A DNA stretch of 36,397 bases from Candidatus Gastranaerophilales bacterium (GTDB taxonomy: Bacteria > Cyanobacteriota > Vampirovibrionia > Gastranaerophilales > Gastranaerophilaceae). Positions 31,598 to 36,397 of the stretch are shown here, piece after piece. A model generated the notes under the pieces. It saw nothing but the letters and a program-made list of their open reading frames with translations, had not been told where the DNA came from and did no database searches. Both the position numbers and the translations under genes were made by a program. Where the stretch lies: the NCBI GenBank assembly GCA_947589255.1, contig CANQAL010000007.1:1-36397 (forward strand), read 5' to 3'. The first letter of the stretch is position 1. Each line of letters begins with the position of its first letter.

Positions 31598-31621
31598 TTT
31601 TTATTTTTTTCGTATTAATTA

Positions 31622-31792
31622 TTTCAGAAAAATAAAGTTTCGTTCTTATGCTCCGTATAGATAATATCTAAGCTCAAACGAGCTGCGGAACTCGCTGCAC
31701 TTTGTGCAGCTCAAACAGTCCTCGCTTTGACGTCTTTTCGCTAAGATATTAAACTATACTACGCAATGAACTTCAACTTTATTTTTCTGAAA
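31622..31792. repeat. Left unit with 18-bp inverted ends
   Basis: TTTCAGAAAAATAAAGTT at 31622-31639 is repeated exactly in inverse orientation at 31775-31792, bounding a 171-base unit. A third exact copy of the same 18 bases, in the inverse orientation, is at 32013-32030 and closes the larger element. Confidence 0.7.
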
Positions 31793-31811
31793 ATTATCTA
31801 TTTCTTATATT

Positions 31812-31972
31812 GCGGAAATTAATAAATTTGTAAGCCTTGCGGAATATAGTACAACTTCTTAGCGAAGCGGCAGCATTGCCCCGTCTGTTTGAGCGCAGCG
31901 AGTTACGGGGCATTGGCTGAGCTTAGAAGTTATCTATATGGAGCATCAGATTACAAATTTATTAATTTCCGC
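31812..31972. repeat. Inner unit with 22-bp perfect inverted ends
   Basis: The 22 bases 31812-31833 (starting GCGGAAATTAATAAATTTG) recur exactly in inverse orientation at 31951-31972, bounding a 161-base unit. Its end sequences differ from those of the left unit, but its core is an inverted relative of the left unit's core, which suggests two related elements or one that has been rearranged. Confidence 0.7.
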
Positions 31973-32071
31973 TGATAGATTAAAACAAAAAACTTCCTAA
32001 GCATTAGAACGAAACTTTATTTTTCTGAAAAACTAACTAAATTAATAACTAAATTAAGAAAAAATATAAAA

Positions 32072-32305
32072 TTAAGCTTCAATAAAAAGTCTTCTGCCTA
32101 CTATATTTGGTTTACCGTTGTAGTATCCCGCAAAGTACCCGCCTTTTACGGGCTTATTTACGGCATAATTTTTTCTTGCCGTATTACTCGGCTGTAAAAA
32201 TGGGTTTTCAAACGGGTTATAGCCGTTAACTTCTATGGCAGTAGTTTTTGTTGCGACGGGCGCATATAATACTTGTGATACCATGCTTTTTAATTGTTCT
32301 ATCAT
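32072..32305 (-). CDS. Small hypothetical protein
   Basis: A 77-residue reading frame with AAGGGA 6-7 bases before its ATG, which favours a real gene. The sequence has no hydrophobic segment or signal peptide. It contains GYNPFENPFLQP, a basic middle and an aromatic, glycine-rich stretch (KGGYFAGYYNGKPNIVGRR). I recognise no family. It stands alone between the repeat region and a long AT-rich gap, and ends 41 bases from the repeat. It could be a small lineage-specific protein; a chance frame is less likely given the RBS and coding-like composition. Confidence 0.6.
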   Translation of the reverse strand: MIEQLKSMVSQVLYAPVATKTTAIEVNGYNPFENPFLQPSNTARKNYAVNKPVKGGYFAGYYNGKPNIVGRRLFIEA

Positions 32306-33483: not shown

Positions 33484-33516
33484 AAAACCGGAATGTAATT
33501 ATTACATTCCGGTTTT
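33484..33516. terminator. Bidirectional terminator between prepilin-like gene and gatB
   Basis: AAAACCGGAATGTA (33484-33497) pairs perfectly with 33503-33516 around a 5-base loop; the stem ends in A4/T4 giving U tracts on both strands. It lies 32 bases after the prepilin stop and 15 bases after the gatB stop, so it probably ends both transcripts. Confidence 0.88.
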
Positions 33517-33531
33517 CTTATATTAACTAAT

Positions 33532-34986
33532 TTATCCTTCAAGCCCTTCTTTTAAAAGTTTATTAAGTAACTGCGGGTTTGCTCTGCCTTGAGTTTCTTT
33601 CATAACCTGCCCGACAAAGAACCCGAATAACTTATCCTTACCGCCTCTATATAATTCAACTTGCGAGGGGTTATTGGCAATAACTTTATTGATAATTTCT
33701 TTTAAAGCACCTTCATCTGAAATTACCCCAAGACCTTGTTTTTCAACAAGTTCTTTAGCGCTTCCGCCTTCTTTTAAAAGTGTAACAACAAGCTGTTTAC
33801 CGATATTATTTGAAATAGTGCCTGATGTTACAAGGTTAATTAATTCCGTAAATGAATCAGGTGTCAATTTTGTTTGTTCAAGCAGAAGTTTTTCTTCTTT
33901 TAAATATGCCGCTATTTCTTTCATAAGGAAGTTATTGGCGGTTTTTGGATCAGCCCCCATATTAACCGCTTTATCATAAAACAGGGCAATATCCTGCTGT
34001 TCTACCAAAACATTAGCATCATAAGGAGTTAACCCGTATGAAATGTATCTTTGTCTTCTGTGATTTGGAAGTTCAGGCATTTTAGAAGCGATTTCGTTTA
34101 CCCATTCTCGGGATATTTTTAGAGGCATTAAATCAGGTTCGGGGAAATATCTGTAATCGTGAGCATCTTCTTTCCCTCTCATAGATTTTGTTACACCCTG
34201 ATTATCATCCCAAAGTCTTGTTTCTTGGATAACTTCTTCTCCTGCTTCTACTATATCAATTTGTCTGTCTATTTCATATTCAATCGCTCTTTGAAGCGCT
34301 CTGAAACTGTTAACATTTTTTATTTCTGCTCTTGTGCCAAACTCTTTTTGTCCTATAGGGCGCACGGAAATATTTGCGTCACACCTCATAGAGCCTTCCT
34401 CTAAGTTGCCGTCGCATACTCCTATATATCTTAAGGTGGTTCTTAACTCCTCCATATATGCTCTTGCTTCATCGGATGAGCGCATATCAGGTTCCGATAC
34501 TATCTCTAATAATGGTGTACCTGCCCTGTTTAAATCAACAAGCGAGTAACTTGAACCTGCTATACCTGTTGACCCCATATGGACAAGTTTTCCCGCATCT
34601 TCTTCTAAGTGAGCTCTTGTTATTCCTATTCTTTTCCCTTCAATATCTATATGTCCGTTTACGCAAATCGGCTGGTCATATTGTGATATTTGATAGCCCT
34701 TCGGAAGGTCGGGATAAAAATATTGCTTCCTGTCAAATTTACAATACTCGGGAATTGTACAATTTAGTGCAAGCCCTGTTAATATCCCCATATTTACTAC
34801 TTCTTTGTTTAAAACGGGTAAAACCCCCGGCATGCCTAATGTAATCGGGCTTATATGAGTATTTTGTTCACTTCCGAATTCCGTTGAATCGGGTGCAAAA
34901 ATTTTTGATTTCGTTTTTAACTGCGCGTGAACTTCAAGTCCTATTACAACTTCGTATTTTTTTCTTAATTCTTCCATTGTCGCCAT
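33532..34986 (-). CDS. gatB: Aspartyl/glutamyl-tRNA amidotransferase subunit B
   Basis: The kinase-like and tRNA-binding subunit of GatCAB, which converts mischarged Glu-tRNA(Gln) or Asp-tRNA(Asn) to the correct amide form. It has 484 residues. The cradle domain opens EVVIGLEVHAQLKTKSKIF, with DLPKGYQISQYDQPI, HLEEDAGKLVHMG, VDLNRAGTPLLEIVSEPD and EGSMRCDANISVRP in the expected order. The C-terminal helical and YqeY-like domains follow (GKQLVVTLLKEGGSA to FFVGQVMKETQGRANPQLLNKLL). GatA and GatC are not in the window. AGAGG lies 10 bases before the ATG; a second ATG 3 codons later is possible. Its presence suggests that the organism lacks glutaminyl- or asparaginyl-tRNA synthetase. Confidence 0.96.
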   Translation of the reverse strand: MATMEELRKKYEVVIGLEVHAQLKTKSKIFAPDSTEFGSEQNTHISPITLGMPGVLPVLNKEVVNMGILTGLALNCTIPEYCKFDRKQYFYPDLPKGYQISQYDQPICVNGHIDIEGKRIGITRAHLEEDAGKLVHMGSTGIAGSSYSLVDLNRAGTPLLEIVSEPDMRSSDEARAYMEELRTTLRYIGVCDGNLEEGSMRCDANISVRPIGQKEFGTRAEIKNVNSFRALQRAIEYEIDRQIDIVEAGEEVIQETRLWDDNQGVTKSMRGKEDAHDYRYFPEPDLMPLKISREWVNEIASKMPELPNHRRQRYISYGLTPYDANVLVEQQDIALFYDKAVNMGADPKTANNFLMKEIAAYLKEEKLLLEQTKLTPDSFTELINLVTSGTISNNIGKQLVVTLLKEGGSAKELVEKQGLGVISDEGALKEIINKVIANNPSQVELYRGGKDKLFGFFVGQVMKETQGRANPQLLNKLLKEGLEG

Positions 34987-35054
34987 TTATTATAAACCTC
35001 TGATTCCCTTTGACTGATAAAATCATATCATAAACAAAATTTTCAATTTGTTTT

Positions 35055-35693
35055 TTAATTTTTCAACAGTTCAAAATAATTTTTAGAATATCTTAAAATC
35101 CCTTCATTGCGCATTTTTGATAACTCTCTTGACATTGCGCTCCTATCTACACACAAAAATTTCGCCATTTCTTCTCTTGAATACGGTACGGAAAATATCC
35201 CATCCGCAGTTTTGTATGATTTCAAAAATGCTAAAATTTTATCTCTTGTACTTTTCTGCCCGATTATATCTATTTTTTCATTCAATAAAGAATTTCGCCC
35301 TGATATCATTTTCATGATGTTCTTTATAAGCTGAATATGATATGAACAAAGCTTAGAACAGGGAGTTACCACCTTTTCAAAAGGCAGAAAAAGCACCTCA
35401 CATCCCTCTTGTGTGTAAACATCCACGGGGCTTTTACTCTGCCCCAAACATACTATATTATGTCCGAATATATCGTTTAGCTTTAGTTTTTCAATTATTA
35501 CATTTTCATTTTTAAAATCACTTTTACTTACAATTGCAGAACCTTCCAAAATAACAATTAAAAAATCAATTTTACTGCCTGCCTTAAGAATATAGGTATT
35601 TTTTTTGAAAACCTTTGTTTTAATGCCGAAGCATTGTAAAAGTTCCAAAATATTATTATTTTCAATATTCTCAAATAAATCGATTTTAAGCAT
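35055..35693 (-). CDS. Crp/Fnr family transcriptional regulator
   Basis: A 212-residue regulator of normal family length. Residues about 1-115 form the cyclic-nucleotide-binding-like beta roll (KAGSKIDFLIVILEGSAIVSKSD, DIFGHNIVCLG). A long dimer helix follows, and the C-terminal winged helix-turn-helix reads SREEMAKFLCVDRSAMSRELSKMRNEGIL, with the recognition helix DRSAMSREL. The cysteine set of FNR (N-terminal CxxC) is absent and the conserved cAMP-binding REK-type residues are not obvious, so the ligand is unknown. Its ATG overlaps the stop of the upstream glycine-rich protein by 1 base (TAATG), so the two are translated together; this suggests that they act in one response. Confidence 0.9.
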   Translation of the reverse strand: MLKIDLFENIENNNILELLQCFGIKTKVFKKNTYILKAGSKIDFLIVILEGSAIVSKSDFKNENVIIEKLKLNDIFGHNIVCLGQSKSPVDVYTQEGCEVLFLPFEKVVTPCSKLCSYHIQLIKNIMKMISGRNSLLNEKIDIIGQKSTRDKILAFLKSYKTADGIFSVPYSREEMAKFLCVDRSAMSRELSKMRNEGILRYSKNYFELLKN

Positions 35694-36397
35694 TAAAATT
35701 TATTTCTTTTTATTTTCTTTTTGTTAGTGGAAAGTTTATCAATATGTAAATCTTTTTTAGCATTGTCAATAGAGATTTTGGCTAAAGGTTTGTGATTTCT
35801 TTTATCATAAAAAACAAGCCAATGTTCTCTTTTAGGGTCATCTACCGAAAATGATAATATACCTGATACACTTTCACCCTTTTTTATGGTTTTCATCGCA
35901 AGCGAATTTCGGTAATCTGTAAATATAGAAGGATTATAAGAGTTGTGTAAATCGTTAACCATCGCTATATCAAAAGTCGAAAAATCGCTCTTAGAGTTAT
36001 TTCTTATAATCAAATCAAGCGAAATTGTATTAAGATTGCCGAAAGGATCTTTTTCAAGGTAAATATCGGAAATATTAACATCCAGCCCGTCGTATTTAAT
36101 TTCCTCCTGCCTTACGGAATCAAAAGTCATAACAGGAATAGCTTCCGTACTTTTAATTTTAACCTTGATTTCATCGCCCGGAGATATAAGTACGTCTTTA
36201 CCTTTCCTGAATAAACTCATCCCCAAAGCAATAACCCCGCCTAGTGCTGCTCCGCCAGCTAAAGTATAACCCTGACTTATAATAGCACCTTCAAGTCCTA
36301 CAAGTTCAATGGCCGCCATTGCTCCGTACATACCGCCTATTGCGGTATTTGCAAGATTTTTCCCTACCGCATTTACGGCAGAATGTGCAGGATGAAG
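35693..36397 (-). CDS. Glycine-rich membrane-associated hypothetical protein (partial)
   Basis: The frame stays open to the right edge of the window, adding 22 residues (ending TAIGG) before the first Met at 36331. That Met has a purine-rich site only 1 base away and is a poor start, so the true start probably lies outside. The visible N-terminal part is rich in Ala and Gly (GAMAAIELVGLEGAII, YTLAGGAALGGVIALGMSLF), with GxxxG-like spacing as in glycine-zipper membrane segments. The rest is a beta-rich soluble domain (ISPGDEIKVKIKSTEAIPV; later GNLNTISLDLIIRNNSK; then SGILSFSVDDPKREHWLVFYD) ending in a basic tail. I recognise no family. It is coupled by 1 base to the Crp-like regulator. Confidence 0.7.
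   Translation of the reverse strand, partial: LHPAHSAVNAVGKNLANTAIGGMYGAMAAIELVGLEGAIISQGYTLAGGAALGGVIALGMSLFRKGKDVLISPGDEIKVKIKSTEAIPVMTFDSVRQEEIKYDGLDVNISDIYLEKDPFGNLNTISLDLIIRNNSKSDFSTFDIAMVNDLHNSYNPSIFTDYRNSLAMKTIKKGESVSGILSFSVDDPKREHWLVFYDKRNHKPLAKISIDNAKKDLHIDKLSTNKKKIKRNKF

Follow-up and report, generated by a model that had tools for sequence, protein, structure and literature searches.

The window, a stretch of 36,397 nucleotides, is contig C7 of the Candidatus Gastranaerophilales genome G000, an assembly of 1.83 Mb in 166 contigs with 95% completeness. Directly 3′ of dnaB (a gene name given by eye), positions 31622–32030 hold a set of nested inverted repeats, and an open reading frame scan found no frame of at least 80 amino acids within its two units, A and B (Table 1). 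The 18-bp sequence AACTTTATTTTTCTGAAA occurs there exactly three times, at 31622–31639 on the minus strand and at 31775–31792 and 32013–32030 on the plus strand; the 31-bp outer pair (31622–31652 and 32000–32030) differs by one mismatch, the inner 22-bp pair (31812–31833 and 31951–31972) is perfect, and the halves are alike in inverse orientation, with 71% identity between 31709–31766 and 31837–31894. This layout agrees with the initial annotation, which had described one element inserted into, or fused with, an inverted relative. That description is corrected in one respect: A, with its core on the minus strand, and B, with its core on the plus strand, belong to one repeat family and stand head to head, and each has arms of its own. 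In 31598–32100 the longest exact inverted match measures 25 bp, as against 24 bp for the longest in 1,000 first-order Markov copies of that stretch, 17 of which reached 18 bp. The RNA fold energy of the element corresponds to z = −13.

Table 1. Features of the element 3′ of dnaB and of a related site in the window. G029 and G032 are relatives of the window's genome; the scores come from the covariance model R1, and the cores of A and B are both among the 29 rows used to build it.
Feature	Positions	Strand	Remarks
Left outer arm, 31 bp	31622–31652	+	30 of 31 positions paired with 32000–32030; first 18 bp double as left arm of unit A
Unit A, 171-bp hairpin with 18-bp perfect arms	31622–31792	−	Core on minus strand; inverted in G029
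Unit A, type I core	31641–31766	−	R1, 118.8 bits
Unit A, right arm (third 18-mer copy)	31775–31792	+	Exact match
Unit B, 161-bp hairpin with 22-bp perfect arms	31812–31972	+	Inverted at the dnaB site of G032
Unit B, type I core	31837–31953	+	R1, 110.3 bits
Right outer arm	32000–32030	+	Pairs with left outer arm
Probable scar of a lost third unit, C	31600–31621	+	By-eye comparison with G029 and G032
3′ flank of crp-like gene, element-free in the window	34987–35054	.	G029 and G032 bear a related composite 3′ of the homologue

The proposal that the element is multi-copy, MITE-like, gene-less and rearranged was borne out by dispersed matches in its own genome, its genus and its order. A blastn search returned ten matches in G000 (some being self-matches of the halves) and hits in 26 of the 41 genomes of the genus. 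Model R1, built from 29 copies, located 12 copies in G000. In the order it matched 90 of 192 genomes, of which 88 belong to the window's family, and in the phylum 67 of 292, every one from that family. The core measures approximately 120 bp and exists in at least three related types; almost all genomes with it belong to the window's family of Gastranaerophilales, and copies are numerous, dispersed, gene-less and built of inverted repeats, as are those of a MITE. Searched with one genome per species, the exact core pattern TTAGAAGTTNTCTATACGNAGC gave 21 stretches, all from Candidatus Gastranaerophilales metagenome bins (‘Lapin’ samples), the named genomes being metagenome assemblies. An exact core pattern had no match in viral contigs, and the phage and plasmid collections held no match to the family. 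In 8 of 27 same-genus genomes (the window and 7 of 26 loci, some of which stop at contig ends) a core follows dnaB at a short distance on its 3′ side, against none of nine more distant loci. The literature openly available on Gastranaerophilales and Melainabacteria repeats held, for the terms tried and in the portions accessible, nothing on such elements.

Other arrangements were seen elsewhere in the collection. On contig C35 of G000 (locus L019, 398–1050), a composite of types I and III is duplicated in tandem, with 300 identical bases 353 bp apart, and adjoins a 5S rRNA gene and a partial 5S-like repeat. The copies of G128 and G147 (L179–L190) form a subfamily without private arms, with a constant right side that holds a second hairpin (CCACCCGTTCTTT..AAAGAATGGGTGG) and a repeated unit of approximately 235 bp.

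Strong folding, a conserved internal loop (TGTTTGA/GAGTT) and the recurrent position 3′ of dnaB could each be taken to indicate a structured RNA, a terminator or an RNA-processing element of dnaB, but such a role is very improbable. Among 92 distinct copies, 87 had sufficient flank for placement, and all but one of these (86 of 87) are intergenic by a simple open reading frame call, dispersed beside many unrelated genes. Of the copies that face the 3′ end of a gene, 44 point the same way as that gene and 47 the opposite way (counting a copy between convergent genes twice and pair members separately); intergenic placement without strand preference thus favours a DNA element over an RNA. Pairing in the core is likewise of a DNA type, with strong Watson–Crick covariation. 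The fixed 17-pair lower stem is paired in 99.0% of 491 cells, a percentage favoured by the structure having come from the same alignment, and 45 of its cells are changed on both sides against 6 G–U cells, a scarcity of G–U pairs that is not favoured in this way; sliding the partner columns by one to three destroyed the pairing. Neither the strand-consistent placement nor the G–U-tolerant covariation of a structured RNA was found, and units are inverted in place in relatives. Rfam gave no match in the window; at four element loci it returned just a 5S rRNA and, on another hairpin, a MIR396 hit below threshold. That hairpin is a different, long one in G029 (L079 5590–5743, contig C10 at about 34590–34743), 3′ of a pilin-like gene, opposite window positions 33516–33519 and absent from the window; the hit probably reflects only the length of the hairpin.

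Just outside the core, 48 of the 92 copies carry a perfect inverted arm of at least 14 nt, the other 44 having shorter ones, and 27 of 92 carry one of at least 18 nt. When left and right arms were drawn from different copies, at least 14 nt was reached in 14 of 909 combinations and at least 18 nt in 2 of 909, while shuffled arms reached 14 nt in 0 of 920. Coreless perfect palindromes (arm at least 16, spacer at most 20) are nearly absent, with 1 in approximately 133 kb. From these counts and controls it follows that arms and core belong together, yet the arms are largely private to each copy. Thus, in G202, 8 of 13 copies with near-alike cores bear unrelated arms, whose longest exact matches run from 9 to 27 nt, the other five having one longer unit in common. 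Some subfamilies share arms between loci, such as the AATTTTTATATTATT arm of the window's genus, so that arms are not always new. No arm of at least 14 nt extended as far as the stop codon of any open frame with 90 or more amino acids. The differing arms of the very similar G202 cores might also mean that cores landed in pre-existing palindromes, for example terminators, whose sequences differed from place to place; we reject such targets on account of the near-absence of coreless palindromes, and the A+T-rich arms are unlike usual terminators, which leaves this origin with hardly any likelihood. One coreless 22-bp palindrome, CAACATAATAAATATTATGTTG (L327, contig C33 of G000), lies apparently outside long open frames. 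Canonical SbcD was represented only by relatives below the cut-off, in 32 of 41 genomes.

A single-copy element, fixed at one place in all relatives, was what the initial annotation thought would favour a structured RNA or regulatory element; instead, occupancy and orientation vary among close relatives, including G032 and G029, whose DnaB proteins are 98% and 95% identical to that of the window's genome. The site 3′ of dnaB contains a type III unit (C) and a reversed unit A, without B, in G029, and unit C and a reversed unit B, without A, in G032. Unit A of G029 is identical to that of the window at 169 of 171 positions when inverted, against 100 of 170 otherwise, and unit B of G032, inverted, aligns at 156 of 161. 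Model R1 found C units in L099 and L100. The right arm of the type III hairpin of G029 and G032 reads on into the sequence at the probable scar in the window; G000 retains what looks like the right arm of C only, and by eye the loss of C fits 8-bp TTTTATTT direct repeats.

Comparable differences occur at other sites. On the 3′ side of the crp-like gene (named by eye), G029 bears a related composite and G032 a form of it that is fused in the middle; the window has none. A segment with this gene and its neighbour is inverted between the window (35051–36397) and G029 (L079 7915–9261), where it adjoins a hairpin composite. A tRNA-adjacent copy is present in G029 and G032 and missing between TATTT repeats in G000, which is best read as a loss because G000 is nearer to G032; G039 bears a different unit at this site. 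In a further G000 copy, the interior is both inverted and half deleted. In G032 a single composite links two neighbourhoods which in G029 are separate and have a composite apiece, the outcome that recombination between copies would give. The unit losses fit deletion through short direct repeats. Among the sites compared, none showed a clean, recent insertion opposite an empty ancestral site, and the empty sites for G202 copies came from relatives too distant for base-by-base alignment. The intergenic region orthologous to one G202 copy in G121 (L256, contig C12) carries another tandem repeat family (..AATCTTGGATTATTGGCAGTTCGG..).

Two parts of the initial annotation were not supported, namely that the 18-bp ends are those of a transposon family and that a matching transposase lies elsewhere. 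Outside the element, the 18-mer recurs in its own genome only with two mismatches, no more often than a reversed control pattern, and arms tend to be particular to each copy; no matching transposase was found, nor were terminal repeats common to an autonomous transposon. Target-site duplications were sought, with TA flanking both sides of 3 of 9 composites and nothing consistent among the G202 modules. Paired CATAADAAATATTAT ends, seen in 16 genomes, lie 409–602 bp apart and hold cores, and none spans a gene-bearing element of 1–3 kb. An autonomous parent near the G202, G174, G128 and G147 copies was also considered and dismissed: repeats in these 7–16 kb stretches are short mosaics with a largest pairwise block of 489 bp, the reading frames inside having been scanned unsystematically. 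That the family consists of REP/REPIN-type palindromes moved by a Y1 (RAYT) transposase would accord with hairpins that alternate in orientation and with Y1_Tnp proteins in 11 of 41 genomes of the genus. Y1 is missing, however, from the copy-rich genomes G000, G029, G032, G019 and G025, and none of 12 Y1 loci searched in relatives contains a core; we reject a RAYT link on these absences in G000 and in the relatives' loci, and give the reading as a whole very little chance.

Conserved outer ends occur in the family solely as dif-like sites, and these are limited to a subset of composites. Head-to-head core pairs of the window's genus (g1) end in inverted CATAADAAATATTAT, and among the loci fetched from it all nine inverted pairs of this type 250–900 bp apart enclose cores, with lengths of 409–602 bp. 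Six modules of genus g23 (four in G202, one in G174 and one in G128) lie between inverted ..GATAA-6 bp-TTATGT.. sites. Across 237 loci, 32 GATAA-6 bp-TTATGT sites lie no more than 450 bp from cores (133 kb) and 3 lie more than 1,000 bp away (639 kb), an enrichment that is descriptive since the loci were fetched for their cores and the motif was chosen after it had been seen. Only the 6-bp spacer is enriched, other spacers giving at most one site near cores and 30 permuted patterns at most two. Compared with three dif sequences from a published survey (PMC3025954), the module ends match at 18 of 28 positions (122 of 20,000 permutations were as good) and at 19 (29 of 20,000), a moderate likeness. 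Lone CATAADAAATATTAT sites away from cores were set aside as chance, being mostly in open frames. The isolated site L328 has a dif-like look, but none of the sites listed outside composites in G029 or G032 matches it exactly.

Judging from these sequences, host XerC/XerD-type recombinases may carry and re-sort the composites via their inverted dif-like ends, the window copy having lost its own; we put this forward tentatively, as somewhat less than an even prospect. The enclosure of cores by every g1 pair, the six g23 modules, the concentration of sites with a 6-bp centre near cores and the matches to known dif all point this way. Against it, the window copy has no dif-like site, for which reason we do not file it as a dif module; the likeness to dif is no more than moderate, and the motif was recognized post hoc; neither the chromosomal dif nor the Xer genes of the lineage were located; the XerD-like arm faces outward in g1 and inward in g23, making site orientation genus-dependent; no such sites are visible around most core copies; and a 21-base g23 version also occurs in six viral contigs. 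As mover of the family, a Xer-type recombinase is still the best candidate, if an uncertain one, and it is compatible with a MITE-like reading. The fuller proposal, that gene-less modules ride the Xer dimer-resolution machinery via dif-like ends, that new copies gain fresh arms from local DNA and that the ends reveal the lineage's dif, is more speculative and rather doubtful.

Taken together, the element in the window is most probably an old, decaying compound of a new MITE/REP-like, non-autonomous family of palindromic DNA in Gastranaerophilales gut bacteria. Copies are dispersed and intergenic, the pairing is of a DNA type, units are inverted between their arms and the chromosome is rearranged between copies. 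Each unit would be a structured hairpin core of approximately 120 bp lengthened by perfect inverted arms; we infer that the core is mobilized in trans, that arms may arise at the birth of a copy and then decay, and that flips may result from recombination at the arms or from template switching; the window copy is presumably an old nested derivative without intact outer ends. This would constitute a new palindromic repeat family in uncultured gut bacteria, one that varies in orientation and content among close relatives and reshapes chromosomes. If the ends are Xer sites, the composites would be a minimal, gene-less element exploiting Xer and a first lead to dif in this group, for which the published survey predicted dif in none of five cyanobacterial genomes (PMC3025954).

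Among known systems, bacterial MITEs (reviewed in PMC10969869) are similarly short, gene-less and made of inverted repeats, with many dispersed intergenic copies that presumably depend on functions in trans. Unlike MITEs, the present family has a structured, conserved core, arms that vary per copy in place of constant terminal repeats in most copies, no clear target duplication and no parent transposon found. REP and BIME sequences (PMC2817692) are likewise intergenic imperfect palindromes in alternating orientation and composite arrangements, whereas the core described here is approximately 120 bp with long arms and has no linked RAYT. The dif modules of Acinetobacter differ in that the present composites, of 0.34–0.85 kb, are chromosomal, from another phylum and without genes seen inside, with putative sites known from sequence, and in that the window copy bears no sites. 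As in those modules (PMC6449649), however, some composites lie between inversely oriented dif-like sites with a variable 6-bp centre, a better conserved XerD-side arm and two palindromic inner arms.
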